Positions 45,801 through 60,251 of a DNA stretch of 64,000 nucleotides are shown piece by piece. The notes below the pieces were generated by a model, which saw only the letters and a program-made list of their open reading frames with translations, made no database searches and was not told the DNA's origin. The first letter of the stretch is position 1; every line of letters starts with the position of its first letter. Source of the stretch: an uncultured Marinobacter sp. (lineage in GTDB: Bacteria > Pseudomonadota > Gammaproteobacteria > Pseudomonadales > Oleiphilaceae); assembly GCF_947259545.1 (NCBI RefSeq), contig NZ_CAMYMK010000009.1, positions 186,001 through 250,000 of the forward strand, given 5' to 3'. The translations under genes were made by a program, and so were the position numbers.

Positions 45801-45969
45801 CCTGGCCCGGATAGGTGGTTTTGACGATTACCTGCACATCCGACAGGTCCGGTATGGCGTCAATGGGTGTTTCCCTGACGGAATAGAATCCCCACCCGGT
45901 CAGAATCAGGGTGGCAAGCAGCACAAAAAATCGATTATGAAGCGACCACTGGATAATGGCGTTAATCAT
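42826..45969 (-). CDS. cusA: Heavy-metal RND efflux pump (CusA type)
   Basis: A 1047-residue HME-type RND transporter. Typical features are RETPIDAIPDLSDVQVIVKT near the N terminus, proton-relay segment GGIAIAIGAMVDGAIVMVEN in TM4 and MPTTYPGISIGKARQILQQ in the second periplasmic loop. The TM4 motif and the adjacent CusF-type proteins indicate Cu(I)/Ag(I) as substrate. It takes metal from the periplasm or cytosol and passes it to the outer-membrane channel. Last gene of a four-gene minus-strand set. Confidence 0.93.
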   Translation of the reverse strand: MINAIIQWSLHNRFFVLLATLILTGWGFYSVRETPIDAIPDLSDVQVIVKTTYPGQAPQVVEDQVTYPLTTAMLSVPGAKTVRGYSFFGDSFVYVIFDDDTDLYWARSRVLEYLSQVAGQLPDAAKPELGPDATGVGWVYSYALVDRSGQHDLSELRAIQDWFLKFELQTVPGVSEVASVGGMVKQYQVVVDPDRLRAHDITLQRIHAAINNANQETGASVVEMAEAEYMVRVTGYLQNEVDLRQVPLGVNDNGKPLLLKDVADVQLGPQIRRGIAELNGEGEVAGGIVVMRFGENALETIEGVKQRLEDIKTSLPDGVEVVPTYDRSTLINNAVDNLYGKLLQEFLVVIVICAVFLFHLRSSLVVIVSLPVGILAAFVVMHAQGINANIMSLGGIAIAIGAMVDGAIVMVENVHKHMERTPLTPENRWAVMSRAAGEVGPALFFSLMIITVSFLPVFTLQAQEGKLFAPLAFTKTYAMAAAAGLAITLVPVLMGYFIRGKVLPEHRNPINRLLITLYRPVIGWALRRPALMLAGGLVVLVIGFWPANKLGSEFMPPLDEGDLMYMPTTYPGISIGKARQILQQTDKLIASIPEVETVFGKIGRAETATDPAPLTMIETFIQFKPRDQWRPGVTPESLRQELDETVKLPGLTNAWVMPIKTRIDMLSTGIKTPVGIKVAGPDLEVIQGIGEELERVLSDIPGTASAFSERVAGGRYIKVDIQRDAAARFGLNIADIQSVVRTAIGGMNVGSTVEGLERYPINLRYPQGYRDSVEQMRLLPMVTPNGQRIALADVADIGIDQGPPMIKSENARINGWTLVDIEGRDLGSWVAEAQERVRDKVELPAGYSLTWSGQYEYMQRAKERLTMVVPLTLAIIIILLYLNFRNLTEVGIILGTLPFGMIGGIWLMYLLGYNLSVAVAVGFIALAGVAVEIGVLMLVYLNQSLHNALEAVDHQPTRLSADDLRQAISDGAAQRVRPIMMTFAAIVAGLVPIMLGSGTGSEVMQRIAGPMIGGMITTLILTLLLIPVIFYLWQRARLRHSVRKAAP

Positions 45970-46031
45970 GGGCTGAATCCGGTCTGGTGACAGTCGGGAG
46001 CGCGCTTACGGCAGCGCCCCCGGCGCTATCA

Positions 46032-46373
46032 CTATTGTTTGCTGATGGCGGTCACTTGCTGTCCTTTCTCCGCCGGTCTCAGGGTGAAGGTAACGGAGTC
46101 ATCTTTTTTCAGTCCGTTCATATCCACCTCGGGTGCCACGGAAAATCCCATGGTCATGCGCGGCCAGTTCAGCTCCGGAATGGGCTCGTGGTTCAGGGTG
46201 ATCTTGCGTTTTTCGGTGTTGATCGCGGTGATCACGCCCCGGCTCTGGACCGGGCCTGTGGACTCTTTTGTGTCCATGCCGGACATGGATTTCATACCGG
46301 TTTCTGCCACTGCCAGCACAGGGCTCAGGGTTAATCCGAATACAGCAGCGATCATGAGGGTTTTCAGGTTCAT
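46032..46373 (-). CDS. cusF: Periplasmic copper-binding protein (CusF type)
   Basis: A 113-residue exported protein: signal peptide (MIAAVFGLTLSPVLAVA) and one CusF OB-fold domain. The metal motif reads LNHEPIPELNWPRMTMGFSV, with the His/Trp/Met/Met ligand set of CusF. It is a Cu(I)/Ag(I) chaperone that hands metal to CusB. The gene lies between cusB and cusA in the same direction. Confidence 0.92.
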   Translation of the reverse strand: MNLKTLMIAAVFGLTLSPVLAVAETGMKSMSGMDTKESTGPVQSRGVITAINTEKRKITLNHEPIPELNWPRMTMGFSVAPEVDMNGLKKDDSVTFTLRPAEKGQQVTAISKQ

Positions 46374-46388
46374 GGTTTTCTCCAGTGG

Positions 46389-47882
46389 TTAATGCGCGTC
46401 TTGCGCAGGTTCAATACGTTCGATGAGATAGCCTTCCGGGGTTTCAAGGAATTCAAAGCGGACTGTCTGGTCGGGGGCCAGGGCACCGGTATCCACCGAG
46501 TCGGCAAGAGCAAACGCCATGGTCATGGCGGGCCAGCTCAGTTCCGGTATGGGGGCATGATCGAGGGTGATTGAGCTGCCTTCGCTATCCAGCTCGGTGA
46601 TCCGGCCAACGCCTCCGATCAGTTCTGACGGCGAGCTGTCTGACCCGGTGTCACTGCTGCTTTGCTCATCCCCTTCAAGCCTTAACATGGCGGCTTCGAG
46701 GCTGGTTTCGGAGTCGATCAGGAATTGCGCGGACACCACCACCTGCTGACCCTCTGTCAGTCCCTCGCGAATGACCACCCTGTCCCCGGCTTCCTGGCCG
46801 GTTTTTACGGGCACCGGGCGGAAGTAGCCATCCTCTTCGGCCAACAGCACATGCTGGCTGTCGCTGCGCTGGATAAGTGCCGGGCGTGGGATGGTGATCA
46901 GGTCATCGCCGATGGGCGCGTCCATGGTGAGGTTCACGAACATGTTGGGACGTAGCCGGCCGTCGGCGTTGGGAACGCGCACCCGTGCCCGCAGGGTTCG
47001 CGTGCTGGCATCCAGCTCCGGGTAGACGTAATCAATGGTGCCCTGCCACTGGGTGCCCGGCATGGCGGGTGTAGTAAATTCGACCGCCTGGCCGGCCATG
47101 ACCAGCCCCGCCTGACGCTCGAAAAACTCGGCGATCACCCAGACCGAATCGCGGCTGCCAATGGCCATGATCTCGGTATCCGGGCGCACATACATGCCGG
47201 TGCGGACTGGCAGAGCGGCCACGTAACCGGAGCCGGGGGCGAATACGGTGATGCGTTCCCGGACCTTGCCGGTTTTTCTCAGATTGGCAATCTGGCCATT
47301 GGTCATCCCCAACGCCCGCAGCTTTCCGCCTGTTGCCGTCGCCTCTGAGCCGCGCCTGAGACGTTCGGACATCAGGAATTCCTGCTGGGCGTTCACCAGC
47401 TCCGGCGAATAGATCTCATACAGCGGCTCGCCCCGGCTGACTTTCTCTCCCAGCGAACGAACGTGCAGCACCTCGACCCAACCGGCAATGCGGCTGTGCA
47501 CGTGGATCAGCTCGTCCTCGTCGTCGGTGACATAGCCTACCGTGCGAACCGGAATGGTGACCGGCCCGCGGGAAACGGTCCGGGTTTTAACGCCCAGGTT
47601 GGCCCTGACTGCGGCGTTGATTTGCACCCCGCCATCGTCTCGCCCGGTGTCCTTTTCCTCATATACCGGCACCAGGTCCATGCCCATGGGGGACTTGCCG
47701 GGCTTGTCACGGCGGTAATCGGGGTCCATGGGGGCGACCCAGTACAGGGGGTCTTTCTGGGTCGAATCCTCAGCGGATGTGCTGGAGTCGTTGGATTGGG
47801 CCATTGGCATTGTTTGCTGACTTGTCAGCCAGCCAAGACCAAAGGCAATAGCGATCACTATCGCCACCAGGGCAATGCGCAT
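46389..47882 (-). CDS. cusB: RND efflux periplasmic adaptor with fused CusF domain (CusB type)
   Basis: A 497-residue membrane-fusion protein. N-terminal anchor, then a heavy-metal-binding domain (YWVAPMDPDYRRDKPGKSP, ending MGMDLVPVYE), the hairpin/lipoyl/barrel adaptor core (HVHSRIAGWVEVLHVRSLG) and a C-terminal CusF-like domain (LDHAPIPELSWPAMTMAFAL). So the system carries two CusF domains, one fused and one free. The adaptor links CusA to an outer-membrane channel. Confidence 0.92.
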   Translation of the reverse strand: MRIALVAIVIAIAFGLGWLTSQQTMPMAQSNDSSTSAEDSTQKDPLYWVAPMDPDYRRDKPGKSPMGMDLVPVYEEKDTGRDDGGVQINAAVRANLGVKTRTVSRGPVTIPVRTVGYVTDDEDELIHVHSRIAGWVEVLHVRSLGEKVSRGEPLYEIYSPELVNAQQEFLMSERLRRGSEATATGGKLRALGMTNGQIANLRKTGKVRERITVFAPGSGYVAALPVRTGMYVRPDTEIMAIGSRDSVWVIAEFFERQAGLVMAGQAVEFTTPAMPGTQWQGTIDYVYPELDASTRTLRARVRVPNADGRLRPNMFVNLTMDAPIGDDLITIPRPALIQRSDSQHVLLAEEDGYFRPVPVKTGQEAGDRVVIREGLTEGQQVVVSAQFLIDSETSLEAAMLRLEGDEQSSSDTGSDSSPSELIGGVGRITELDSEGSSITLDHAPIPELSWPAMTMAFALADSVDTGALAPDQTVRFEFLETPEGYLIERIEPAQDAH

Positions 47883-48445: not shown

Positions 48446-48471
48446 TGTAACAACCCCGCATCCCCTGTGTC
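48446..48471 (+). promoter_or_regulatory. ECF-type promoter of the TTLL operon
   Basis: Exact TGTAAC-16 nt-TGTC. The -10 element ends about 130 bases before the TTLL start codon. Confidence 0.78.
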
Positions 48472-48602
48472 TCCCATAGGAACGGAAAGAAATTGCCATT
48501 GATGTGTAACGCCTTCCGATCTGGTGTGTCGATGTGGGAGTGCACTACAAATCAAGGCAAGTTCAGGGTGCAGAAGTTCACGGTACAGGAGCGTAATCCG
48601 AT

Positions 48603-51026
48603 ATGACTCGACACTACTGGATGGGTGGCAAGCGCACCTACGAGCAGGACCGTTTTTTCGAATCATCACTTGATAAAGCCCGCTGGCAGGCCGGGGATGA
48701 TCCGCAGGAGTGGGATGCCTGTTGGTACACCGGTATGCCGGACCCGGAATACTTCGCGAAGGTCGGGCCTGACCGCAAGATCAATCACATTCCGGGAAAC
48801 AACGCCCTGACGGTTAAGAGCCGGCTCTATCAGAGCCTGGTCACGCTTCGGGAGCGGGTGGCGGTTCAACAGCGCGGGGCGTCTCATCTGACAGACCGGC
48901 TGCAGTTCGTGCCCCGGGTTTTCTCCATGCCTGAGGATTACCATGAGTTTCAGCAGGAAGCTTTTGACAACCCGTCCAGTCGCTGGCTGCTCAAGCCCAA
49001 GAATGCGGCACGGGGCAAGGGCATTCAGCTGGTTCAGGATCCGGCGAACATTCCGCTGGATTCTTCTTGGATGGTCCAGGAGTACATCGGTAATCCCCAC
49101 ACCATGCGCGGGCGAAAATACGTACTGCGCCTGTACGTCGCCATCACTTCCGTCACGCCTTTGCGGGTTTATCTCTATCGTCAGGGATTTGCCAAGCTTG
49201 CCTCTGAACCCTATGACGAAGAAAACGCGGACAATCCTTACAGTTACCTCACCAATCCGGATATTAACGCCCTGAACCTCGATGCCGAGGTACCGGTGGA
49301 GTTTGTAGATCTGGCGCGATACCGGGAGTGGCTGAGGGAGGAGGGTCACGACGATGACGTTCTGTTTGCCCAAATTGAAGACCTGGTCGCCCTGACCTGC
49401 CTCTCCGCAGTGGAGGCCATGCGGGAGAGATCGAGGGCAATCGGCGCGGATACCCGGGGGTGCTACGAACTGCTTGGTATTGATTGTCTGGTTGATGACC
49501 AGCTCAAACCCTGGATTTGTGAATGCAACCTCAGCCCGTCGCTGGAAGTCTGCGCCGGTCCCGAAAGTGGTGGCGAGATCGAAGAGGATATCAAAGGTTC
49601 ACTGGTGGCGGATCTGGTCAGCCTGGTGGGATTGAACGGCAAGACTGAACCCGATCGTGCAGACACCCCCGAGCAACAACTGATCGCGGAAACCGGGGCA
49701 GAGCTGTCGCGGGCGGGGAATTTCAAGCGTCTGCTGCCCTCGGACACCCCGGCTCGTTACCTGCCTTTTTACACCCTGCCGCGCATGGAAGACTGGGTTC
49801 TGGCAAAGGCCATCTCCGGTGAGCCGCTCACGCAACCGACGCTCAGGCGGCGTTACGCCGAGGACATGATCAGCGACGATTGTGTGTACGTTTATGACAC
49901 CCGTCTTGGCCATCTCAGCGCCCTGAATGAGACCGGTTCTCTGATCTGGCTGATGGCGACAGACGGCGCCGCGCCAGATGACATAGCGGATGCCCTGAAT
50001 GACTCGATTGATCCCGGAGCGGCGGACCGACCCGATATCTGGGCCATTCGCCGGGACGTCTGGAATTCGCTGGCGGACTGGGCCGCCAATCAACTTCTGG
50101 TGCAGGATGCCCCCTCTGTTTTTTCCGTCAGTACTGTCCCGCGCGCTGTCGAAGCGCGAGTCCCTGGCAAGACTGTGCAATTTTCACGGGTCCTTGAGTG
50201 CGGGGCCTTCCGGATCGAACTCTGCACAGACAGCGAGCCCCTGGTTGACCGGATAGAGCCCCTGCTTACGCCGATGGTGAGCGAATCGCCGCAGGGGGCT
50301 GAATCCCGATTGGAAATCGTCCGTGATACACCGGGATACACGCTGATTCTGGACGGTAAGGTCGTTCAGTCACGGTTGGCACTCTCCCGGGTGGCACTGG
50401 CGGTGATGGTGTGTCTGACCCGACAGGCAGCGGATAACGGCGAGATTGTTCTCGATGCTGGCCTGATTGCCTCCCCGGATGACCCCGACAATGCCGTCCT
50501 GGTGGCCAACAGCGACCGGGAGCTGGGTGATCTGCCTGCGCTTGAGATGGCGAGCCGTCTCGACGCCGGGTTCAGTCGTGCCATCAGAATTCCGGAGGAT
50601 GTAGGCGGGCTTTGTTCAGTGCTGGGACTACCGGCCCAGGTGCCCGAGTTAAAAGCGGATGCTGCCGGCAAACCGTACGCATCGCCGATTCATCACCTGG
50701 CAGACGGTAGCGGCATGATGCTGCAGGCAGCCTCTTCCGGACTGGCCGGAGAAACGCGCCGGATTCAGACAGTGCTTATCCCCAGCCACGTCTCCCTGCG
50801 GGAGAAGACGGGTATCCGAAAACTCTCTGTGAGTGAGGCCATGCGCCATCTTATTCCCGGCTGCTGTGGGGCTGACGGGCAGCCTTTGGGATCTGCGGGA
50901 TTCTCACGTCTGGCGGACTGGCTGGCGGGCATCGATCGATATCTGGTGGATGCCAATCACCTGGAAACCGCAGTGGCGAATTTGCCACTGGAACAGGAAA
51001 CGCAGGGAGTGAGTCACTCTGCCTGA
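48603..51026 (+). CDS. Tubulin-tyrosine-ligase-like / PqqD-like / degenerate HprK-like fusion protein
   Basis: An 807-residue, three-part protein. Residues ~1-345 are a TTLL-type ATP-grasp ligase. WLLKPKNAARGKGI (~129-141) is the ATP-binding segment. GRKYVLRLYVAITSVTPLRV (~170-189) and GIDCLVDDQLKPW with CECNLSPSL (~292-314) match the eukaryotic TTLL hallmark blocks. Residues ~425-500 look like a PqqD/RRE domain (VYVYDTRLGHLSALNETGSL), a fold that binds leader peptides. Residues ~515-790 resemble HprK-related kinases, but the P-loop position reads VLVANSDRELGDLPALEMAS without GxxxxGK, so this part is probably not a kinase. TTLL enzymes attach Glu, Gly or Tyr to acidic tails. The next genes encode Glu/Gly-repeat proteins, the likely substrates. 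Promoter is ECF-type. Confidence 0.88.
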   Translation: MTRHYWMGGKRTYEQDRFFESSLDKARWQAGDDPQEWDACWYTGMPDPEYFAKVGPDRKINHIPGNNALTVKSRLYQSLVTLRERVAVQQRGASHLTDRLQFVPRVFSMPEDYHEFQQEAFDNPSSRWLLKPKNAARGKGIQLVQDPANIPLDSSWMVQEYIGNPHTMRGRKYVLRLYVAITSVTPLRVYLYRQGFAKLASEPYDEENADNPYSYLTNPDINALNLDAEVPVEFVDLARYREWLREEGHDDDVLFAQIEDLVALTCLSAVEAMRERSRAIGADTRGCYELLGIDCLVDDQLKPWICECNLSPSLEVCAGPESGGEIEEDIKGSLVADLVSLVGLNGKTEPDRADTPEQQLIAETGAELSRAGNFKRLLPSDTPARYLPFYTLPRMEDWVLAKAISGEPLTQPTLRRRYAEDMISDDCVYVYDTRLGHLSALNETGSLIWLMATDGAAPDDIADALNDSIDPGAADRPDIWAIRRDVWNSLADWAANQLLVQDAPSVFSVSTVPRAVEARVPGKTVQFSRVLECGAFRIELCTDSEPLVDRIEPLLTPMVSESPQGAESRLEIVRDTPGYTLILDGKVVQSRLALSRVALAVMVCLTRQAADNGEIVLDAGLIASPDDPDNAVLVANSDRELGDLPALEMASRLDAGFSRAIRIPEDVGGLCSVLGLPAQVPELKADAAGKPYASPIHHLADGSGMMLQAASSGLAGETRRIQTVLIPSHVSLREKTGIRKLSVSEAMRHLIPGCCGADGQPLGSAGFSRLADWLAGIDRYLVDANHLETAVANLPLEQETQGVSHSA

Positions 51027-51033
51027 AAAGAAT

Positions 51034-51050
51034 CCGGGCAAATTGCCCGG
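51034..51050 (+). other. Intercistronic stem-loop
   Basis: CCGGGC and GCCCGG pair around AAATT between the TTLL gene and the first repeat-protein gene. There is no T-run. It could stabilise or process the mRNA so that the small repeat protein is made in excess of the enzyme. Confidence 0.35.
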
Positions 51051-51084
51051 TGTTAACCACCGAAACGGATAGAGAGGAAAGACT

Positions 51085-51405
51085 ATGTCCAGAGATATCC
51101 AGAAAAGACAGTTGTTGCGAAAACTCGCCAAGGGGATCAGCTACACGGGCCCGATCCTTGCGGTAGTTGTTGGTGCGTCGGCTTTCAGTGCCTCGGCCGC
51201 TGACGTCAATGCGGAAAGTGAATACCTGATGCTGGCCGCCGGAGAAGCCGAGGCTGAAGGGAAAGCCCACGGCGAAGGTGAAGGCGAAGCCAAGAAAGGC
51301 TACGGCGAGGGCGAAGGTGAGGCCGAAGGAGAAGGAGAAGGAGAAGGCGAGGGAGAAGGCGAAGGTGAAGGTGAAGGTGAAGCGGAAGGTGAGGCCGAGG
51401 GCTGA
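51085..51405 (+). CDS. Exported Glu-Gly/Glu-Ala repeat protein (candidate modification substrate)
   Basis: A 106-residue protein. Residues 1-39 form a long leader with LLRKL at 10-14, a hydrophobic core (PILAVVVGASAFSASA) and a signal-peptidase-like ASA-A site. Residues 53-106 are almost only Gly, Glu and Ala (GEGEAEGEGEGEGEGEGEGE). The repeat end is the C terminus of the protein. The leader matches that of the cytochrome fusion at 52141 in the position of LLRKL and in the P-VV-A pattern. It follows the TTLL/PqqD protein by 58 bases with ribosome site gagaggaaag. Function unknown; a substrate role is inference. Confidence 0.8.
   Translation: MSRDIQKRQLLRKLAKGISYTGPILAVVVGASAFSASAADVNAESEYLMLAAGEAEAEGKAHGEGEGEAKKGYGEGEGEAEGEGEGEGEGEGEGEGEGEAEGEAEG
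51241..51402 (+). repeat. Coding hexamer-type repeat (GGNGAR units)
   Basis: Tandem GGCGAA/GGTGAA/GGAGAA units with some GCC/GCG inserts encode the Gly-Glu/Ala-Glu tail. The units vary at third positions, so the protein sequence, not the DNA, is what is conserved. Confidence 0.9.
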
Positions 51406-51540
51406 CCCGGACTGCTTTCACCGGATCAACAGGCAGTGGCCCGGGCAGGGAATGCCTTCCTTGCACCGGGGCCCACTGGCCCTCCCCGGATATGACGTTG
51501 TCGAGATACGAATCAACCCAGATGATGCGGGTGAACAAAA

Positions 51541-52098
51541 ATGCTGAATTCAAGTTCCGAATCCATCAATTGCGACGATCTTGTTGCTGAGAATGCATAC
51601 GCGATCCGTCAGCTAACGGACTTTCTCGCGGTGTTGCCCGGACAGGTGTACCGACAAACCTTCGGGGCGAAGAAGCAGCACGTGATTGGCAAGCACGTAC
51701 GTCACATCATTGACCATTACATGGCTCTTCTGAGAACTGTGGATGAGCAATCTCCCGGGTCACTTGATTACGAAAACCGACAACGGGAAGAGCCTCTCGA
51801 ACTGGACAAACATGCGGCCTGTAACAGGCTCCTGGCGATTGCTAGCTCGCTCGGCCAGTTGATGGCCGCCCGGCACCGAACGTCGGTCCTGATGCGCCAT
51901 GTCAGCGATGACCATGATCGTCTGGTATCCACCAGTATTGATCGGGAGCTGGTGTTCCTTGCCAGCCACACCGTTCACCATATGGCCATTATTGCCATGC
52001 TGGCGGAACAGGAGGGTGTTGAAGTCAGCGAAGAATTCGGGGTGCACCCATCGACATTGCGACATTTGCAGAAATTGAATATGGCGAAGAGTGCGTGA
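51541..52098 (+). CDS. DinB-like four-helix-bundle protein
   Basis: A 185-residue protein of the DinB/YfiT type. Likely metal ligands are in IGKHVRHIIDHYMALL and SHTVHHMAIIAMLAEQEGVE, with a further His-rich loop (MRHVSDDHDRLV). Some relatives are bacillithiol- or mycothiol-dependent transferases, while others have no known role. No signal peptide, so it acts in the cytosol. Its place between the two repeat-protein genes, in the same direction and with short gaps, suggests a part in the same process. Possible transferase or hydrolase acting on the modified peptide; inference only. Confidence 0.78.
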   Translation: MLNSSSESINCDDLVAENAYAIRQLTDFLAVLPGQVYRQTFGAKKQHVIGKHVRHIIDHYMALLRTVDEQSPGSLDYENRQREEPLELDKHAACNRLLAIASSLGQLMAARHRTSVLMRHVSDDHDRLVSTSIDRELVFLASHTVHHMAIIAMLAEQEGVEVSEEFGVHPSTLRHLQKLNMAKSA

Positions 52099-52140
52099 CC
52101 AGGTAGGACCAACAAACGATAACGACCGGAGGGTGATCAA

Positions 52141-52827
52141 ATGTCGACTGATACAAATCGTACGGAGCTCCTGCGAAAGCTTTCCCGAAACCTGATGGTG
52201 TCGGTACCGGTGATGACAGTTGTAGCGATGGCCGGTGCGACGGCGGTATCAGATAACGGATTCAGCTTGATTCCGTCAGCTGAAGCCGCACAGGGAGAAG
52301 CCGAAAGTGAAGCAAAAGGCGAGGCTGAGGGTGAAGCCAAAGGTGAAGCTGAGGGCGAAGGAGAGGCCAAGGGAGAAGCAGAAGGCGAGGGTGAGGCAGA
52401 AGGTGAAGGAGAAGCGGAGGGGGAAGCTGAAGGTGAGGGAGAGGCCGAAGGCGAAGGTGTCTCGGAAGCCATGAAGCAAGCTGTGCGGCGGCCCGAGGGT
52501 TACCAGCCTTATGAGGGTGATGCCGATTCACTGGCTAAAAAGGGTGAAACCCTGTTCAACGACACTACCCTGTCGTCCAACGGGTTGGCCTGCGCTACCT
52601 GCCACACCAACGGTGCCGGCTACGCCGATACTTTCTCGAACGACTACCCCCATTTTGTGGCAATGGGAAAATCCGACTTCGGCATGGACATGGTCCATCT
52701 CGATGAAATGGTCCAGATCTGCATGGTGGCGCCGATGGCTTCGCAGCCGCTGGATTGGGCGTCAGAGGAACTGGCTGCGCTCACCGAGTACATGCGGATT
52801 GAGCAGGAAAAGTTCAGAAATAAGTAG
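52141..52827 (+). CDS. Glu-Gly/Glu-Ala repeat protein fused to c-type cytochrome domain
   Basis: A 228-residue exported protein. Residues 1-49 are a leader like that of the 51085 protein, with LLRKL at the same positions 10-14 and a hydrophobic core (VPVMTVVAMAGATAV). Residues 52-106 are a Gly/Glu/Ala/Lys repeat (GEAEGEAKGEAEGEGEAKGE). The rest is a cytochrome c domain: haem motif CATCH at 151-155 and a probable axial Met in CMVAPMASQPLDW. So the repeat links the membrane or cell surface to a haem domain, or presents a modified segment beside it. Ribosome site cggaggg. Last gene of the operon. Confidence 0.85.
   Translation: MSTDTNRTELLRKLSRNLMVSVPVMTVVAMAGATAVSDNGFSLIPSAEAAQGEAESEAKGEAEGEAKGEAEGEGEAKGEAEGEGEAEGEGEAEGEAEGEGEAEGEGVSEAMKQAVRRPEGYQPYEGDADSLAKKGETLFNDTTLSSNGLACATCHTNGAGYADTFSNDYPHFVAMGKSDFGMDMVHLDEMVQICMVAPMASQPLDWASEELAALTEYMRIEQEKFRNK
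52294..52458 (+). repeat. Coding repeat of the cytochrome fusion protein
   Basis: Tandem GGNGAR and GCNGAR units encode 55 residues of Gly-Glu/Ala-Glu with periodic Lys. This is the second such tract within 1.2 kb. Confidence 0.9.
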
Positions 52828-52863
52828 AGCCACAATTTGTTGTTGGTCGGGAACCAACCTTTC

Positions 52864-52890
52864 GGGTGGAGCTAGTCTCCACCCCTTTTT
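52864..52890 (+). terminator. Intrinsic terminator of the TTLL operon
   Basis: GGGTGGAG and CTCCACCC pair around CTAGT, followed by five T. It overlaps the end of the convergent DsbA-like gene and is nearly identical to the hairpin at 42746. Confidence 0.92.
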
Positions 52891-54191
52891 CTGATCTCGT
52901 CTTCGATCAGCCACAAACGGTCCTGGCCCCAACAGCTGACGCTGCCATAATGGAAGCTCGGAACCCCCCAAAGCCCGTGGCTGTACATCGCCTTGCGGTT
53001 ATCTTCCGCCCAGTCGCGCCAACTCTGATCGGTGAGTATGGGGCGGGCCTTGTGCCAGTCCAGTCCCGAGCGTTCGACAATGATTTGAAGGCCACGATCG
53101 GTTTCAGAGCGGATGCCCTCTGCGTTAACTGCCCGGGCATAAGTGCGCATGTACTCGACTTCCCGTCCCTCAGCACGGGCGTACTCAAAAAGCGCATAGC
53201 ATCGTTCAACTCCGGTCCCTAATGGATCGGCAACGAATCCGTAGGGTATGCCCAGTTTGGTTGCTTCGCGTTTGGTGTCCTGAAAGATGTACCACTTCTT
53301 GGCGTCGGGTACCGCCTGTCCGCGCATTAGCATGGGCAGAACCGGGCGTAATTCAAGGGGAAGATTCCAGGCCTTTGCCAGCGTAATGGCCCTTTCCAGG
53401 CCAAGGTATGAGTATGGGCTGCGGATAGAGAAGAATACTTCCAGCGCGTCGTTCCGGGCGGGGTGTGACTGATCCAGAGGCTTTGCGTTCTCTCCGAGAT
53501 CCGTCCAGGTTCGGGTCCAGGAAGGGCCTGGTGTGGAAGAGCGTGAGAGGCCTTCAACGATCAGCAGGTTTTCCAGGTGGTCGAGCCGGTCAATACCCCA
53601 GAACCATTCACCCCGAAAATGCAGCATGCTGCCCTGGTAGTGACCAAGAGCGCTCAGTCGCTGCTCATTGATCTGCAGTCTCTCTGCCAGATCTGGCTGT
53701 GATAATGAAGATTCTCTGGCTATCTCGATCGCTTCTCCTCTCCAGAGAGCACGCAAGGCATCGCGGGCAGGCGTCAGGTATTCCCCCCTGTCTTCCAGGT
53801 TCAGTAACTGATCCCGGCAGGCGGTGAAATCTTCCTCTGTAGGGTGCTTCGACAGGTTCGGGCCTTCCAAACCGTAGAGGGAAGCGACTCTGCTTGCGTC
53901 CGTGATCGCCCAGTCCGCCCACATGGCCGGCTCCGGGAACATCTCCTGTGGTTGATGCCAGACCGTCTGGAATCGAAACCGAATATCGTACCGCTGTTTC
54001 AGGTCGGGCAGGGCCTGCAGTAAAACGAAACTGAAAGGATCCCGGGGATTGATGAAAACATCGACGACCTCCCCTTCCTTTTTTCGGAGCGCGTTCAGGC
54101 GGTGCACCCGCTGACGGAGCCCACGGGTTGTCGGGCTGGAGAGAATGCGCGCTATCCACGGCACGATGTCGGCTTTTTCGGGAGCTCTCAT
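52872..54191 (-). CDS. Tandem DsbA/HCCA-isomerase-like protein
   Basis: A ~439-residue protein with two thioredoxin-fold modules of the DsbA/2-hydroxychromene-2-carboxylate isomerase kind. The first begins VVDVFINPRDPFSFVLLQAL, the second ALEVFFSIRSPYSYLGLERA and ends with GVPSFHYGSVSCWGQDRL, the cis-Pro loop region. Neither has a CxxC; the active-site position reads NPRDPFS and SIRSPYS, as in the kappa-class glutathione transferase/HCCA group. It is therefore more likely an isomerase or GSH-using enzyme than a disulfide oxidase. The start at 54191 (MRAPEKAD) is favoured over the ORF-track start, whose extra 37 residues lack any domain features. Confidence 0.85.
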   Translation of the reverse strand: MRAPEKADIVPWIARILSSPTTRGLRQRVHRLNALRKKEGEVVDVFINPRDPFSFVLLQALPDLKQRYDIRFRFQTVWHQPQEMFPEPAMWADWAITDASRVASLYGLEGPNLSKHPTEEDFTACRDQLLNLEDRGEYLTPARDALRALWRGEAIEIARESSLSQPDLAERLQINEQRLSALGHYQGSMLHFRGEWFWGIDRLDHLENLLIVEGLSRSSTPGPSWTRTWTDLGENAKPLDQSHPARNDALEVFFSIRSPYSYLGLERAITLAKAWNLPLELRPVLPMLMRGQAVPDAKKWYIFQDTKREATKLGIPYGFVADPLGTGVERCYALFEYARAEGREVEYMRTYARAVNAEGIRSETDRGLQIIVERSGLDWHKARPILTDQSWRDWAEDNRKAMYSHGLWGVPSFHYGSVSCWGQDRLWLIEDEIRKRGGD

Positions 54192-54246
54192 GTCAGTTTC
54201 TTTTATCGTTATTGTTGAGTGGTAACAAGAATACGGGTTTCTGGTC

Positions 54247-54272
54247 TGTAACAACCCTATTCCCGGAGTGTC
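54247..54272 (+). promoter_or_regulatory. ECF-type promoter of the GGDEF-EAL gene
   Basis: Exact TGTAAC-16 nt-TGTC, 44 bases before the likely start at 54317. Confidence 0.78.
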
Positions 54273-54316
54273 GATAGTACGTGGGTCGGGTTTATTCTCC
54301 AAACGGGGGGCGTGCG

Positions 54317-56467
54317 ATGAAATCGCAGGGAGGGACTGAGTCAGGTGTCGAACTCAGCAATGGTGCCATCTCCCGTCGGCGCGATGATTATTGGCATTCA
54401 ATCCTGGAGTGGGGACATCAGCTGATTGCCTGTCGCCTGTGCCGGAATCTCACCATGGCGGCGTTTGTTGCCATCCTGGTCATTGAATCCATCATCCTCG
54501 TTCCCTCCTACCGTAACCACGAGGAAAATCTCCTGCGTCAACATGCCACGCTGGCAAGTCAGGCCCTTACCACCTTTCTGGCAACCAAGTCTGGCGAAGT
54601 GACGACGGGCTCCTTGAGTCTGCTGCTTGAAAGTTCCCGGATTACAGGTATTGAGTTAATGGTTGGTGAGCACTGGCTAACGACTGGCGAGCCTGTGATA
54701 GAGCCAGGGGATGCCGCGGGAAGGTTGAGGGACCTCTCCCGCGCCGACGCAAACCGACTGGATCTTGCCTGGGAGTCAGGGCAATGGCTGGGGGATTATC
54801 CGGTCAGGGCTCGAATCAATATTACTGGAGTTTCCGGGGAGCTGACATCATTTGTCCTGCGAATACTGGGACTTTCCCTACTTATCGCCGTCTTTGTGAC
54901 AGTAGTGACCATGGCCGTCGTTGACCGCATGATGTTGTCCCCGTTGTTACGGTTGCGCAGCCGTATCGTCAGAGCCGGTGCGGATGCAGAACATCCGCTT
55001 ATGTACGTCCGAAAGCCGGAGCGCTGCGACGAATTTGGTGAAGTGGAGGCGACCTTCAATCGCATGCTGAAACAGAATGCCTCATACCTGAACCGATTGA
55101 CGGCCCTGAACCAGCGTCTGGATCAGCTGTTGACGGAGCGCACGCGTTCGCTCAGACGGACAGAGCAGGAACTGCACATCCGCAGTCTGTATGACCAGCT
55201 GACGGGGCTGGCCAACCGCTCCCTGTTCGAAGAATGTCTGACCCGGTCTTTGGTAGAGCCGACTATGGCGGATGCCAGGCCGTCTGCCTTGGTTGTCCTC
55301 GGTCTTGATGACTTCCAGGCATTGAACGGTCTGGCGGGGCACGAAATCGGGGACCGGGTACTGCAGGAGATTGCCCGTAGACTGGCCAGGTTCAACAGTG
55401 AACCTGGTTGTGTGGCTCGTCTTGGCGGGGACGTGTTCGGGTTGTTACTGACGCCTGAACAAGGTCCGGAATACGATCAGCTAGAAGCGGAGATTGCTGC
55501 CGTTATTCGTAGCTGTATGGCTCCTGTGTGTGTCGCGGGCATGAAATACGAATGCGATGTCAGTGCCGGTGTGGCAGTGACGCCCGTTGACGGTATGGAT
55601 GCCGGAACTTTGCTGGGCCATGCCGAGATTGCCATGCACCGGGCAAAGAAATCGGCAGATCTCAAGATTCAGTTTTTCGCGTCGGACCTGGGCGAGCAGG
55701 TTCAGCATCGGCAGGATATGGTCAAAGACTTACGCGGTGCCCTGGAAAACGAGCAGTTTGCACTCCACTACCAGCCACAGTTTGATTGTGCGGGGCAATG
55801 TGTTGGCTATGAAGCGCTTTTACGCTGGTATCACCCGTTGCGCGGTATCGTGTCTCCTGACGAGTTTGTGCCGCTTGCGGAAGAAATCGGCCTGGTTGTC
55901 CCGGTGGGGCGGTGGGTTATAGAGCAGGCCATCGGGACCATGAAACGTTGGGTAGACGATGGCTTCCAGGGCCGGATGGCGGTGAATGTTTCGGCTCGTC
56001 AGCTTACGGATCGATCCCTCGTCGAACATATCGCCAGTGTGCTTGAATTCCACAATCTGGCTTCCGATTATCTGGAAGTGGAAATCACGGAAACCGCACT
56101 CATGAAAGACGTTTCCCTGGCCCTGGAGATTCTGGAAGGATTTCGCTCGCTGGGAATTCAGCTGGCGGTGGATGACTTTGGTACCGGCTACTCTTCCCTT
56201 GCCTACCTTAAGGCGTTACCCGTCAAACGCATCAAGATTGATCGGGCATTTGTTACCGGATTACCGGATAACGAGCAGGACGAGGTGTTGTGCCGGACCA
56301 TGATTTCCATGGCGCATAGCCTGGGATGCCAGGTGATTGCAGAAGGTGTGGAAACCCGGGCGCAGGCGGACTGGTTGATCGCCTCAGGGTGTGATGAGCT
56401 TCAAGGCTTTTTGCTGGGTAAGCCGGAGCCGGAATTCTATTGGTCCTCCCAGTCGATGGTCCTGTAG
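54317..56467 (+). CDS. GGDEF-EAL cyclic-di-GMP protein
   Basis: A 716-residue membrane protein. Two membrane segments (FVAILVIESIILVPSY and LGLSLLIAVFVTVVTMAVV) flank a periplasmic sensor of ~110 residues. A HAMP-like linker (CDEFGEVEATFNRMLKQ) and a coiled coil lead to a GGDEF domain whose signature reads GGDVF, so cyclase activity is doubtful. The C-terminal EAL domain is complete: YEALLRW, ETALMKD, VDDFGTGYSS, KIDRAF and EGVET. It probably degrades cyclic di-GMP, with the degenerate GGDEF as a regulator. Start at 54317 is chosen because the ORF-track start adds 12 residues without domain content and the ribosome site gggggg is nearer here. Confidence 0.9.
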   Translation: MKSQGGTESGVELSNGAISRRRDDYWHSILEWGHQLIACRLCRNLTMAAFVAILVIESIILVPSYRNHEENLLRQHATLASQALTTFLATKSGEVTTGSLSLLLESSRITGIELMVGEHWLTTGEPVIEPGDAAGRLRDLSRADANRLDLAWESGQWLGDYPVRARINITGVSGELTSFVLRILGLSLLIAVFVTVVTMAVVDRMMLSPLLRLRSRIVRAGADAEHPLMYVRKPERCDEFGEVEATFNRMLKQNASYLNRLTALNQRLDQLLTERTRSLRRTEQELHIRSLYDQLTGLANRSLFEECLTRSLVEPTMADARPSALVVLGLDDFQALNGLAGHEIGDRVLQEIARRLARFNSEPGCVARLGGDVFGLLLTPEQGPEYDQLEAEIAAVIRSCMAPVCVAGMKYECDVSAGVAVTPVDGMDAGTLLGHAEIAMHRAKKSADLKIQFFASDLGEQVQHRQDMVKDLRGALENEQFALHYQPQFDCAGQCVGYEALLRWYHPLRGIVSPDEFVPLAEEIGLVVPVGRWVIEQAIGTMKRWVDDGFQGRMAVNVSARQLTDRSLVEHIASVLEFHNLASDYLEVEITETALMKDVSLALEILEGFRSLGIQLAVDDFGTGYSSLAYLKALPVKRIKIDRAFVTGLPDNEQDEVLCRTMISMAHSLGCQVIAEGVETRAQADWLIASGCDELQGFLLGKPEPEFYWSSQSMVL

Positions 56468-57189
56468 TCAAAGTCGGTTTCAATGGTGGGTTTGATGATC
56501 CGGAAATAGGGAGAGGCGTCGAAATCCCTGGGTGTGAACAGGGAATGGTGACGGATACGGAAGCGCTCTATAACGCAATCCTCACAGTCCGGGTCGTCTG
56601 CGGGGAGCGTTCTTACAATCGGCAGGATCGGGTATCTCAGGAGCTGAAACCCTTCCGCAATAAAGGTTGAGCAGATGGCCCGCGTCGGGTCGCCACTCCC
56701 GAACGCCAGGAGTCTGAGCCTGATACGTGAGGGTACCGGAGGCGTCGGAAACAGGTAGCGCGCCAGGTCAAACACGTTTTTCATGTCGTACTGGTGCCCC
56801 ATGCGACTGATGGCATAATCGGTCAATCGACGAATGTCATTGTCACTGAGTCCGACCGGTCGGCAGACCCGGATGTGGGCATGGCGGTAGAACGACAGTG
56901 GAATCGCCCGAATGCCTTCCTGAAGATCCGCTTCAACAAGTACGCGTGGCCCACCTTCTGCTTCTCCCAGGCCCGCATCCGGACCCAGGTACAGGGCCGC
57001 GTGTGACCAGGTGGACTGGGTAAGGTACTTGATCGCGACACTGATCCGCGTATTCCCCTCGACCAGAAGCACGTCTCCCGGTAGTAAAGCCCCCTGCAGA
57101 GCCTCCCAGGTCGATGTCCTGATGGAGTGACGGGTGATCTGCTTGGACAGGTAGGCGGCAAGGCGCCGCGATAGCCAGTTCAGGAACAT
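56437..57189 (-). CDS. YiiX/YebB-like permuted NlpC/P60 hydrolase
   Basis: A 250-residue protein of the permuted papain-like hydrolase group. Catalytic segments are QSTWSHAALYLGPDAGLG (His) and RAICSTFIAEGFQLL (Cys). Members are linked to lipid or peptide amidase/esterase reactions. It starts with an amphipathic, basic N terminus rather than a clear signal peptide. Its 3' end overlaps the GGDEF-EAL gene by 31 bases. An exact ECF-type promoter lies 38 bases upstream on its own strand, within the gap after the DoxX-like gene. Confidence 0.82.
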   Translation of the reverse strand: MFLNWLSRRLAAYLSKQITRHSIRTSTWEALQGALLPGDVLLVEGNTRISVAIKYLTQSTWSHAALYLGPDAGLGEAEGGPRVLVEADLQEGIRAIPLSFYRHAHIRVCRPVGLSDNDIRRLTDYAISRMGHQYDMKNVFDLARYLFPTPPVPSRIRLRLLAFGSGDPTRAICSTFIAEGFQLLRYPILPIVRTLPADDPDCEDCVIERFRIRHHSLFTPRDFDASPYFRIIKPTIETDFDYRTIDWEDQ

Positions 57190-57226
57190 CTTTAATCCCG
57201 GTTGTTGTTACTGGGTTTCTAGCACA

Positions 57227-57252
57227 GACAAAAAACCGGGGGCACTGTTACA
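57227..57252 (-). promoter_or_regulatory. ECF-type promoter of the YiiX-like gene
   Basis: On the minus strand TGTAAC-16 nt-TGTC, exact. It lies directly before the start codon of the YiiX-like gene at 57189. Confidence 0.75.
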
Positions 57253-57258
57253 GCTATT

Positions 57259-57669
57259 CTAAGCTGTCGCGGGAGCCGGCTGCCTGGAGAGCGTCAATGT
57301 ATCGTAGTCACGCAGCAGGAACAAAGCTGCACAGGCTGCGAGCATGGGCCAGGCAGCGAAGAACAGAAGGTTATCGAAGGGTTGCAGATACTTGGCAAAT
57401 GCCGAGAGTGTGGAGACCCCATGGAAGATCAATATTGCGCCGTAGGTCCAGGTTTTCATCATGCCTGCGACGAACATCAGAATCAGTACCAACTGTGCGC
57501 AGCCGATAGCATAAAATGCGGCTTCGCCTAGACCTCCGAGCCCATAGAAAGCGGCGAATACCTTCGCTGCATGCTCGGGCTGGACCAGTTTATCCAGGGT
57601 CCAGAATAGAAAAACGACAAAAACACCAAGTCGAAGCAATAACAGGGCTAGTGGTAGCTGCTTGGGCAT
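57259..57669 (-). CDS. DoxX-like integral membrane protein
   Basis: A 136-residue protein with four hydrophobic helices (LALLLLRLGVFVVFLFWTLD at the N terminus). The layout and the RLGVFVVF...DKL start fit the DoxX family, but no family-diagnostic residues are certain. DoxX proteins have been tied to quinone or sulfur redox chemistry. It is on the same strand as the YiiX-like gene, whose ECF promoter lies between them. No ECF motif was found before this gene itself. Confidence 0.68.
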   Translation of the reverse strand: MPKQLPLALLLLRLGVFVVFLFWTLDKLVQPEHAAKVFAAFYGLGGLGEAAFYAIGCAQLVLILMFVAGMMKTWTYGAILIFHGVSTLSAFAKYLQPFDNLLFFAAWPMLAACAALFLLRDYDTLTLSRQPAPATA

Positions 57670-57749
57670 CCGAATTCTCCTTGTTGATTTTGAGCGATCG
57701 TTCCAAATACGTGGGGGACTTGCAAGAGTTCCATGAAAATATTCAAATT

Positions 57750-57775
57750 TGTAACGTTGTCACATGAAAAGTGTC
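57750..57775 (+). promoter_or_regulatory. ECF-type promoter of the NrtS-like gene
   Basis: Exact TGTAAC-16 nt-TGTC. Its position implies transcription starts near 57782, so the GTG at 57771 in the ORF track cannot be the start codon from this promoter and the ATG at 57798 is favoured. Confidence 0.78.
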
Positions 57776-57797
57776 AGTTAGCAGAAGATCCGTTGCC

Positions 57798-58115
57798 ATG
57801 CGAGAGGCACTCATGCCGCTTTCCCGATTTGCACACTCTGTTCGCCGCTGTAGCGAGGCATGCGAGCTGGCTGTCAGTCGTGGCACGCCAAGGCGAGCGG
57901 CGAAACTGGCTCTGGTGGTGGGTACCCTGCTTGTTTTGATCAATCAGTGGGAAGCCGTTACTGGCGAAGCGACCCTGGATTGGCTGAAGGTGTTGCTGAC
58001 GTATTGTGTCCCCTATCTGGTGTCCACCTATACCAGTGTCAGCAAAGACCTGTATCTGATGAGGCAGTCCCGTAAAGCACAGCAGGAGATCCACCGGGAA
58101 GCGGAGAAATCATGA
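57798..58115 (+). CDS. NrtS-like nitrate/nitrite transporter-type small membrane protein
   Basis: A 105-residue protein with two hydrophobic helices. The core segment AAKLALVVGTLLVLINQWEA and the second helix YCVPYLVSTYTSVSKDL fit the small NrtS family, some members of which move nitrate or nitrite. The C-terminal region is charged and helical. Substrate is not proved by sequence. Controlled by an exact ECF-type promoter. Confidence 0.68.
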   Translation: MREALMPLSRFAHSVRRCSEACELAVSRGTPRRAAKLALVVGTLLVLINQWEAVTGEATLDWLKVLLTYCVPYLVSTYTSVSKDLYLMRQSRKAQQEIHREAEKS

Positions 58116-58131
58116 TTCCAGAAGTCCGCGC

Positions 58132-58157
58132 TGTAACACTCGCGATGCCGGGGTGTC
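58132..58157 (+). promoter_or_regulatory. ECF-type promoter of the DUF3179 gene
   Basis: Exact TGTAAC-16 nt-TGTC, 59 bases before the start codon at 58217. Confidence 0.78.
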
Positions 58158-58216
58158 AGTGTTTTAGTGGTCTCCACTGAATCGCTGTCGTCGATCGGTG
58201 TTCTGGAGGAAAACCG

Positions 58217-59158
58217 ATGAGGTTACAAAATCGTGTCGTATTACTGCTATGTGCGTTGATTATGGTGGTTACCCGCCCGGCTCTGGCCCAGGAAAAAAAC
58301 GGGTTTGATCTGAGCAACGCTTTGATACCGATCGATGAGATTCTCAGTGGCGGACCACCCCGTGATGGTATTCCCTCAATCAACAACCCGAAATTTGAGC
58401 GCGCAGATGACTCCTTGCCCTGGCGGGAGGACGATCTGGTCATGACCTATGATCATGACCAGGCACGGTATGCGTTTCCGGTTGGTATTCTGAACTGGCA
58501 CGAGATCGTCAATCACCAGTCAGACGGAAAGCCTGTTCTCATTACGTTCTGCCCGCTTTGTGGCACCGGCATGGCCTTTGACCCGGTGGTGAACGGCCGT
58601 CACTTAACTTTCGGGGTGTCTGGCCTGCTCTACAACAGTGACCTGCTGATGTACGACCATCAGACTGAATCGCTCTGGTCACAGATTGAACGCCGGGCAA
58701 TAGCCGGCCCTCTGGCCGGTAAGGAGCTGGAGTCGGTCGCCGTTCGCCATGAGCTATGGCAGAAATGGCGGGAGCGGGTAGGGTCCAGGGGACTCGTACT
58801 GTCCACTGACACCGGCCACCGCCGTGATTACCGAAAGTCCCCCTACGGTGACTACGACCATTCAGATCGGATGTACTTCCCGGTTTCTCACACTAGTCGT
58901 AAATATCACCCAAAGACCTGGGTGCTGGGCTGGACTCACAATGGTGAGAGCAAGGCCTGGCCATTCCCGGAACTTGCGAATCACGATGGCGTGCTGGAAG
59001 ATCGGATTGGGGGAAAGGCCGTTCGTGTTCACTACGATCCGAGCGTACCGTCCGCCGAACTGCGAGACGAGACGGGTAAGCTTCTACCGGCAACCCGGGC
59101 TTTCTGGTTTGCCTGGTATACCTTCCATCCGGACACCGGCGTGTTTGAAGCTGAGTAG
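58217..59158 (+). CDS. DUF3179 domain-containing exported protein
   Basis: A 313-residue protein with a signal peptide (VVLLLCALIMVVTRPALA). The DUF3179 core is clear: ILNWHEIVNHQSDGKPVLIT, then FCPLCGTGMAFDPVV with its CxxC, then LTFGVSGLLYNSDLLMYDHQ. The CxxC could be redox or metal active. No activity is known for the family. Ribosome site ggaggaaaa. It ends two bases before the convergent anti-sigma gene and is under an exact ECF-type promoter. Confidence 0.85.
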   Translation: MRLQNRVVLLLCALIMVVTRPALAQEKNGFDLSNALIPIDEILSGGPPRDGIPSINNPKFERADDSLPWREDDLVMTYDHDQARYAFPVGILNWHEIVNHQSDGKPVLITFCPLCGTGMAFDPVVNGRHLTFGVSGLLYNSDLLMYDHQTESLWSQIERRAIAGPLAGKELESVAVRHELWQKWRERVGSRGLVLSTDTGHRRDYRKSPYGDYDHSDRMYFPVSHTSRKYHPKTWVLGWTHNGESKAWPFPELANHDGVLEDRIGGKAVRVHYDPSVPSAELRDETGKLLPATRAFWFAWYTFHPDTGVFEAE

Positions 59159-59160
59159 CA

Positions 59161-59418
59161 CTACGTGTTGCCCTTGCCCCGTTCTTTCGCTTCAAGCGCT
59201 TCAGCGACACGCTCATCAATTCGGCGAACGAATTCTTCGTCCACGGTACCTGAGGTATGGGCTTTCATAAGCTCCGTGCTGGCGCGCAGGTTGCCGATAA
59301 AGGTGCGGCAATTTCCGCACATCATCAGATGCATTTTTACGGACAGTTTCCCGGCGGTGCCAAGTTCGCCATCAATGTAATCACTGGCAATCATGGCCAG
59401 ATCCCTGCACATCAACAT
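59161..59418 (-). CDS. Zinc-finger anti-sigma factor
   Basis: An 85-residue cytosolic protein with the zf-HC2 pattern: Cys in MLMCRDLAMIASDYIDGELG, then MHLMMCGNCRTF with the HxxxCxxC metal site. The rest is a helix (EEFVRRIDERVAEALEAKER). No membrane segment is visible, so it would act as a soluble, possibly redox-sensing, anti-sigma factor that holds the upstream-encoded ECF sigma. It overlaps the end of the sigma gene by seven bases, which fits translational coupling. Confidence 0.88.
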   Translation of the reverse strand: MLMCRDLAMIASDYIDGELGTAGKLSVKMHLMMCGNCRTFIGNLRASTELMKAHTSGTVDEEFVRRIDERVAEALEAKERGKGNT

Positions 59419-60029
59419 TCGCCCGTCTCCTGGAACGTCTCTACCATGAGAAATATCTTCTGTCGTGCACGGTGTAAAAGTACACGAAGGTTAGAGGCAC
59501 TGACGTCCAGAATGTTACACACATCGTCGGATTTGTGCTGGTGGGCTTCGTAAAGCATCAGGGCGGAACGTTGGGTTTCAGGCAGCGCCGAGAGGTGTTT
59601 GTCCAGGCAGTCGCTGAGCGCGCCGTTCTCCATCAAGGTATCCGCGGATTCGTCAAATCGCAGTTTGGGCGGTATTTCCCAGCGGCCGGATGCATTGAAC
59701 CGGCTGTCCAGATCCGGGTCGAGGCCATCGGAAAAGTCCATCGGGACTTCACGTTTGGCAGATCTGAGTCTGTTTTTGCAGCGGTTGGCCACGATGCGGT
59801 GAAGCCAGGTTTTGAGTCCCGAGCGGCCTTCGAACGTTTGAATCGCGTCAATGACTGTTACCCAGCAATCCTGAACAATGTCTTCAGCACTAGAGCGATC
59901 AAGGTAGAAGCGCGCGACGGCAAGCATGCCGGGGCTGTATGCTCGCACCGCTTCATGGTATGACTGCTGATCGCCCGACTTCATTCGTGAAATCAGTGTG
60001 TTCTCGTCGGGATCGTCCGTGTCAGTCAT
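59412..60029 (-). CDS. ECF RNA polymerase sigma factor
   Basis: A 205-residue sigma-70 family member with only the sigma-2 region (SAEDIVQDCWVTVIDAIQTF, then LKTWLHRIVANRCKNRL) and sigma-4 region (LPETQRSALMLYEAHQHKSD). Between them is an unusually long linker with FNASGRWEIPPKL. It is co-encoded with a zinc-finger anti-sigma. Nine promoters with one bipartite motif lie within 20 kb of it, mostly beside genes of unknown function, and it is the obvious candidate to read them. No copy of the motif was found before this gene itself. Confidence 0.93.
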   Translation of the reverse strand: MTDTDDPDENTLISRMKSGDQQSYHEAVRAYSPGMLAVARFYLDRSSAEDIVQDCWVTVIDAIQTFEGRSGLKTWLHRIVANRCKNRLRSAKREVPMDFSDGLDPDLDSRFNASGRWEIPPKLRFDESADTLMENGALSDCLDKHLSALPETQRSALMLYEAHQHKSDDVCNILDVSASNLRVLLHRARQKIFLMVETFQETGEC

Positions 60030-60225
60030 GCGCTGTCCTTTTGTGAATAAGTATTCAAGAATAGCAGTGAGTTCGTTGATTTCCCAAAAAGTTCCCGGCG
60101 ATTATCGGCCCACGTCGTGATCAATTCGTTAAACATTTATGAGCGCAGGTTGACACATTGGATGCTTTCTTCGCGTAAAACGAAATAAAGCTCAACAGTT
60201 GCAGTGCAGACGATTTCAGTTTTTC

Positions 60226-60251
60226 TGTAACACTTCCACGAATCGCGTGTC
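60226..60251 (+). promoter_or_regulatory. ECF-type promoter of the TVP38-FAD-oxidoreductase gene
   Basis: Exact TGTAAC-16 nt-TGTC, 37 bases before the start codon at 60289. Confidence 0.78.

Follow-up and report, generated by a model that had tools for sequence, protein, structure and literature searches.

Tubulin tails are modified by enzymes of the TTLL type, among which TTLL6 and TTLL7 combine a TTL-family ATP-grasp core with a Glu/Gly-rich, disordered acceptor tail. In TTLL6, residue Q180 makes the enzyme an elongase, and Arg at this initiation-determining position favours the gamma-linked side-chain reaction (PMC7970040, PMC12366701). RiPP systems with an RRE (lasso peptides, TfuB1/TbiB1) use a conserved leader, a repetitive core and a leader-binding-type domain in the enzyme, and HprK-like proteins are found in lasso peptide clusters as well. 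The bufferins, which buffer copper, and the EGKCG/oxazolin proteins modified by MNIO enzymes are exported, signal-peptide-bearing repeat substrates, with DoxX and ECF sigma/anti-sigma genes nearby (PMC12452194). Finally, the cytochromes c of the SoxA/TsdA type (PF21342) are built on a mono-haem CxxCH domain.

The locus that we describe here, from a Marinobacter genome, has features in common with each of these systems and departs from each. Its ligase has the ATP-grasp core, the Glu/Gly-rich acceptor and the Arg of the TTLL6/TTLL7 comparison, but it carries RRE-like and PEPCK/HprK-like domains rather than microtubule-binding elements, and the proteins it presumably modifies are exported, bear a leader and include a cytochrome c. 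As in RiPPs, precursors with a conserved leader and a repetitive core adjoin the modifying enzyme, and binding of the leader by the RRE-like domain is predicted; unlike in the described RRE systems, the enzyme is TTLL-like, the core is part of a chain that includes an entire haem protein, and the leader resembles a Sec signal. Compared with bufferins and other MNIO-modified RiPPs, the core lacks Cys and the modifying enzyme would be an ATP-grasp ligase; a scan of the operon proteins and their neighbours found no DUF692/MNIO or DUF2063. The cytochrome domain scores above the Pfam gathering threshold for PF21342, but the protein has an N-terminal tract and falls far under the SoxA equivalog cut-off. 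Bacterial TTL relatives as such are already in Pfam, and the 2009 amidoligase survey by Iyer, Aravind and colleagues reportedly discussed them. In the open-access literature we found no paper that joins TTL with PqqD, RiPP or bacteria in the present sense, and TTL goes unmentioned in the surveys of graspetides, RREs and MNIO systems. All parts of the locus are of known kinds; their combination, and a haem protein as substrate, appear to be new.

The locus lies in a stretch of 64,000 nucleotides (the window) from an uncultured Marinobacter sp., and its features are as follows.

48446-48471 and 48505-48530, plus strand: pair of ECF-type promoter motifs (TGTAAC-N16-TGTC) ahead of the operon
48603-51026, plus strand: ligase fusion of 807 residues, first gene of the operon (Pfam, PDB sequence matches, profile search, Foldseek)
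51085-51405, plus strand: stand-alone protein of 106 residues with leader and (Gly/Ala)-Glu tract (leader profile E 1.2e-21; tract composition)
51541-52098, plus strand: DinB-like protein (PF05163/PF12867 above cut-off)
52141-52827, plus strand: glutamate-tailed cytochrome of 228 residues, with leader, (Gly/Ala)-Glu tract and mono-haem cytochrome c
52141-52293, plus strand: leader and predicted signal peptide of the cytochrome, residues 1-51 (alignment, genome-wide profile search)
52294-52458, plus strand: alternating (Gly/Ala)-Glu tract, residues 52-106, 55 residues (composition, codons, genome-wide pattern search)
52462-52827, plus strand: mono-haem cytochrome c domain (PF21342, 31.2 bits; 51 distinct orthologous domains compared)
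52864-52884, plus strand: terminator-like hairpin ending the operon (8-bp stem, then CTTTTT)
59161-59418, minus strand: zf-HC2 anti-sigma factor (Pfam zf-HC2)
59412-60029, minus strand: ECF sigma factor (Pfam Sigma70_r2/r4_2)

We consider it probable, from comparative sequence evidence, that this operon directs a leader-guided modification in which a TTLL-type ligase adds amino acids, probably glutamate, to glutamates of the tract before export. The RRE-like domain would bind the leader common to the cytochrome and the 106-residue protein. With ATP, and still in the cytoplasm, the TTLL-like ATP-grasp domain would ligate amino acids to the side-chain carboxyls of tract glutamates, the added amino acid most likely being glutamate. 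Sec export, removal of the leader between AEAA and Q, and haem attachment would follow, probably in this order, and would yield a periplasmic cytochrome whose N-terminal tail is branched and strongly anionic. Expression of the operon would be turned on by the neighbouring ECF sigma factor, and the tail, we conjecture, probably serves to bind metal cations or to dock a partner, letting the haem act there.

The ligase fusion consists of a TTLL-like ATP-grasp domain (residues 57-316), an RRE/PqqD-like region (residues 430-498) and a PEPCK/HprK-like domain (about residues 527-792). The Pfam TTL family (PF03133) matches it with an E value of 1e-54 and 186.2 bits (cut-off 20.1), and among solved structures it is closest to the polyglutamylases TTLL6 (6vzq, E 1.3e-34) and TTLL7 (2.4e-33), with far weaker matches to the glycylase-type 5vlq (9.5e-12) and to tubulin-tyrosine ligase TTL (about 5e-10). 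Similarly, TTLL6 structures are the best Foldseek match (E 2.7e-23) of an AlphaFold2 model of the ligase (mean pLDDT 74.9). The catalytic motifs K131-P132, D294, E307 and N309 are invariant in 14 ligase orthologues and align with those of TTLL6/7. At the position of TTLL6 Q180 the ligase has Arg137 (AARG), with Lys in M. persicus, and at the position of TTLL6 H362 it has Leu (ECNLSPS). In the engineered TTLL6 of PDB 6vzq, Ala-Arg and Ile replace the native Cys-Gln and His; the bacterial ligases have Ala-Arg (Ser-Lys in M. persicus) and Leu at these positions. From these residues the ligase is predicted, by analogy with TTLL6 alone, to be of the branch-initiating type.

An enzyme of this type might act on the tract and yet add glycine, as in TTLL3/8-like glycylation, or another residue that is not glutamate. 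TTLL initiases for Glu and Gly have their active-site logic in common, with glycylation falling on internal glutamates of the tubulin tail (PMC12340829), and the tract itself is rich in Gly. However, both the sequence and the fold of the ligase are much closer to the glutamylases TTLL6/7 than to 5vlq or TTL, and we regard the addition of a residue other than glutamate as unlikely.

The middle and C-terminal parts of the ligase resemble RiPP machinery in sequence and in predicted structure. Residues 423-807, modelled separately (pLDDT 76.7), matched the TbiB1-leader complex in Foldseek (E 9e-4), TfuB1 bound to its leader, and PEP carboxykinases (E 1.3e-6), and an independent profile search of the C-terminal part found TfuB1 at E 0.0038; Pfam PqqD scored 19.3 bits on the RRE-like region, below its cut-off of 23.4. 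HprK belongs to the PEP carboxykinase fold class. The ligase alignment shows no GxxGxGK(S/T) P-loop in the PEPCK/HprK-like domain, so this domain is probably not an active kinase. No dedicated exporter, protease or cyclase was seen for the ligase system. The ligase fusion lies in two frames in G366 and G379 (L017 8001-9383; L165, L166), with the break near the RRE-like domain. Weak TTL matches across the class, confined to PF03133 positions about 239-265, were rejected as spill-over from other ATP-grasp proteins. No Glu/Gly-repeat protein adjoins the free-standing TTL proteins of other genera (L086-L089, L093), and none of the plasmid records matches the ligase.

The sequence-only reading had described the cytochrome as a frame at 52141-52827 of 228 residues with a leader, a 55-residue tract and a CATCH haem motif, and we found it exactly so. 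The leader has a basic start with the layout R-x-x-LLxKLSR, then a hydrophobic stretch and then AEAAQ, and the AEA(A/G)Q that precedes the tract is invariant across the Marinobacter cytochrome orthologues. The signal-peptide cut, the only processing site seen, is predicted between AEAA and Q, ahead of the tract, and thus the tract would form the N-terminal tail of the mature cytochrome. Residues 50-107 comprise 24 Glu, 16 Gly, 12 Ala and 3 Lys, for a net charge of -21; these four amino acids account for just 27% of ordinary proteins in this genome. The three Lys residues sit at Glu positions, and Cys is absent from the tract. All four Gly, all four Ala and both Glu synonymous codons are in use, which argues that the tract is kept by selection at the protein level and is not a recent DNA duplication. 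In the 4.08 Mb genome a DNA pattern for five (Gly/Ala)-Glu pairs is confined to the cytochrome and the gene at 51085-51405 (control matches, 0); chance and DNA slippage as origins of the tract are ruled out by the mixed codons together with this genome-wide uniqueness. The 28 distinct cytochrome tracts are 20-56 residues long, with 36-48% Glu, an alternation of 0.90-1.00 and mixed codons, and their sequences indicate that the tract is under selection across cytochrome orthologues; all tracts compared, including those of stand-alone proteins, span 20 to 68 residues.

In the haem domain the CATCH motif occupies residues 151-155 (52591-52605), and Met199, in a PMA motif, is the candidate axial ligand. 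The match to SoxA-TsdA_cyt-c (PF21342), at 31.2 bits, is above the Pfam cut-off of 27. The cytochrome is not SoxA itself, for which TIGR04484 gave 33.8 bits against an equivalog cut-off of 110, and no sequence relative of the domain was found in the PDB at E 0.01.

The 106-residue protein, which adjoins the ligase in four lineages, has a leader like that of the cytochrome and a 55-residue tract, and is presumed to be a second substrate of the ligase. We built a profile on 15 leaders, in which L10, L14 and P23 are invariant, and searched it in 12 ligase-bearing genomes. The profile finds one to three places per genome, all of them on tract proteins of ligase loci save for one weak match (E 0.08) in an unrelated 675-residue frame of G794. 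Most Marinobacter genomes have two such places, the stand-alone peptide and the cytochrome, and M. persicus has one, the cytochrome. Outside the genus, G212 and G322 have one each, on the peptide, with no leader-bearing cytochrome found by this search, and G794 has two plus the weak third. To judge from this distribution, the leader would be the address of the presumed substrates. Among the stand-alone proteins, that of M. lipolyticus (L010, about 10480-10680) has a very short tract (GEAEAEGEGEAES), and those of G212 and G322 (L084 4949-5254, L085 4770-5093) end in ...GESESGY, with a C-terminal Tyr reminiscent of alpha-tubulin. Each of the three genera with complete loci has a DinB-like gene beside the ligase, at 35-42% identity in the two other than Marinobacter.

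Of 124 Marinobacter genomes compared, 27 encode a near-complete ligase (two of them in two separate frames) and two more retain a remnant; every one of the 27 has the Glu-tract cytochrome. One further genome, G382 (76% complete), has a Glu-tract cytochrome without a ligase seen, and its contig ends there. Another 29 genomes encode a sister cytochrome, whose haem domain is 61-69% identical and is preceded by 14-21 Cys with no Glu repeat; none of the 29 has the ligase, and 28 have DUF6969 alongside. Among 51 distinct haem domains compared, 27 come with a Glu tract, 24 with a Cys tract and none with neither, and we found no intact orthologue of the cytochrome that lacks both. Fisher's test on these counts (27/0/1/29) gives P = 2e-15, a value that overstates the independent evidence because each of the two cytochrome types is largely one clade. 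The split of the two types is weakly supported in the cytochrome tree (79/18), in which the placement of G794 is unsure, and the tree is too short for dating the exchange of tails. Orthologues without the repeat, which the sequence-only reading had thought worth seeking, do occur in these 29 genomes, but with a Cys-rich tract in its place. Its concern that the repeat might be missing from most orthologues holds to the extent that the Glu tract is gone in the 29, but the tract is kept by all ligase-associated orthologues; absence of the tract is therefore rejected for ligase-bearing genomes, with replacement by the Cys tract elsewhere.

The Cys-tract sisters share the chromosomal neighbourhood and, in several cases, the ECF-type promoter motif, but they differ in having an NPCAAKNPC-type Cys repeat, another leader, and DUF6969 where the Glu-type loci have the ligase. 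DUF6969 (PF22308) adjoins such cytochromes in 28 of the 29 Marinobacter loci (L091, L094, L136-L163), and lies beside Cys-repeat cytochromes or peptides in several other genera (L177, L179, L183, L186, L193). This adjacency of sequences suggests that DUF6969 matures or serves the Cys tract.

Because the co-occurrence is bound to clades, decayed and distant loci provide stronger evidence. What is left of the ligase in G004 is 68 residues interrupted by stops, and its cytochrome, fused to a DinB remnant, no longer has the leader, the tract or the haem motif; in G397 both genes are reduced to fragments; in G026 there is no ligase, and the cytochrome reads CATGH in place of CATCH and has a stop ahead of the tract. 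Three genomes (loci L083, L090 and L156) thus show decay of both the ligase and the Glu-tract cytochrome; they may share ancestry, so that the joint decay represents one to three events. At a greater distance, in another family of the same order, G794 encodes a leader-tract protein of 82 residues and a DinB-like protein along with the ligase and, 4 kb off, a Glu-tract cytochrome. G212 and G322 have the ligase, a leader-tract protein, DinB and DoxX, and a Competibacteraceae MAG contig has the ligase, DoxX and a leader-tract protein. M. persicus retains the ligase and the cytochrome, and lacks the stand-alone peptide. Since the distant loci pair the ligase with a leader-tract protein, these two make up the constant core, and the cytochrome would be a second substrate in two lineages.

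Outside the genus it is the peptide that constantly accompanies the ligase (L029, L084, L085). The ligase might instead extend the free C-terminus of this peptide, as TTL or TTLL11 would, and the cytochrome tract would be an unmodified scaffold or docking site. Some TTLLs do carry out such extension (PMC12366701), and the ...GESESGY end of the G212/G322 peptide resembles the end of a tubulin tail. This reading is hard to reconcile with M. persicus, in which the ligase and cytochrome occur with no stand-alone peptide, or with the cytochrome tract, which is internal and yet bears the same leader as the peptide; the Arg at the Q180 position likewise favours side-chain ligation. We think it rather improbable.

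Marinobacter species are halophiles with acidic exported proteins, and acidic low-complexity linkers are common; the tract might accordingly be an unmodified, disordered linker that serves salt adaptation or electrostatic docking, with the target of the ligase elsewhere. We consider this very unlikely, because in this genome the tract is confined to two leader-bearing genes of the ligase operon, the 27 of 27 co-occurrence is accompanied by joint decay, and the relatives without the ligase carry a Cys-rich tract instead. Intramolecular Glu-Lys cross-linking of the graspetide kind, which ATP-grasp ligases do perform (PMC8939145) and for which the window tract offers three Lys at Glu positions, is most improbable and is rejected as a general mechanism, since the acceptor residues (Thr, Ser, Lys) are unconserved, the M. 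persicus tract having no Lys, Ser or Thr and the Lys positions varying among tracts, and since the ligase is of the TTL family, of which the graspetide survey makes no mention.

The promoter motif connects the operon to its surroundings. Exact matches of TGTAAC-N16-TGTC number seven in the window, compared to 0.08 expected, and these are the sole exact matches in the 4.08 Mb genome. All seven fall within 12 kb (48446-60251 of the window), as one apparent ECF regulon: two sites precede the ligase, and one each precedes a GGDEF/EAL gene, a C92 amidase, the ORF at 57771, a DUF3179 gene and a VTT-flavoprotein gene. The motif lies about 100 nt 5' of the ligase in all Marinobacter orthologues examined that have that sequence, and it also precedes several cytochrome genes of both the Glu and the Cys type. 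The ECF sigma/anti-sigma pair adjoins the operon or its Cys-type variant in most loci examined, and from its position the neighbouring sigma factor is presumed to read the motif. The sequences point to the operon and the other motif-bearing genes forming one stress response. The VTT-flavoprotein, a fusion of a VTT domain with a pyridine nucleotide-disulphide oxidoreductase (60289-62499), has the motif ahead of it at 60226 and is followed by a radical SAM protein (62432-63436). CusA/CusB/CusF-like copper-silver efflux genes lie directly upstream of the operon (42826-47882), and L011, L012 and L023 have the set upstream of their ligase too. The DoxX protein has a weak HvfX-like match (E 0.001, below the cut-off).

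The sequence-only reading raised the idea of an amino-acid-modified tract beside a redox centre, and this idea gains genomic support from the TTLL6/7-like ligase with an RRE-like domain in the same operon, from the tract cytochrome in all ligase genomes, and from a leader confined, save for the one weak match, to tract proteins. Taken with co-decay, recurrence outside the genus and membership in one ECF regulon, the co-occurrence gives modification strong indirect support at the level of sequence. A further suggestion of the sequence-only reading, that the tail perhaps binds metal ions or a partner oxidase, is speculation; our own conjecture of a metal or partner derives from the bufferin parallel, the HvfX-like match of DoxX and the alternative Cys-rich tail.

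The broadest reading, which we put forward tentatively and at somewhat less than even odds, is of a bacterial counterpart to the tubulin-tail code, in which leader-guided, TTLL-type Glu branches would be placed on an exported (Gly/Ala)-Glu repeat that resembles a tubulin tail, and the Glu and Cys tails of the cytochrome would be interchangeable, each with its presumed enzyme and within one ECF regulon. If ligation onto the tract is borne out, TTLL-type branching, studied as a eukaryotic modification of tubulin, would gain a bacterial version and bacteria a new kind of protein modification. The substrate would be simple and open to genetics, it would have a leader of its own, and related species would serve as a natural series of knockouts. 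RiPP-like chemistry would then reach a folded redox protein, one cytochrome could bear either of two chemically opposite tails, and DUF6969 would have its first functional lead. The finding would also bear on the origin of the eukaryotic TTLL enzymes, for the study of which it would provide a small soluble system.
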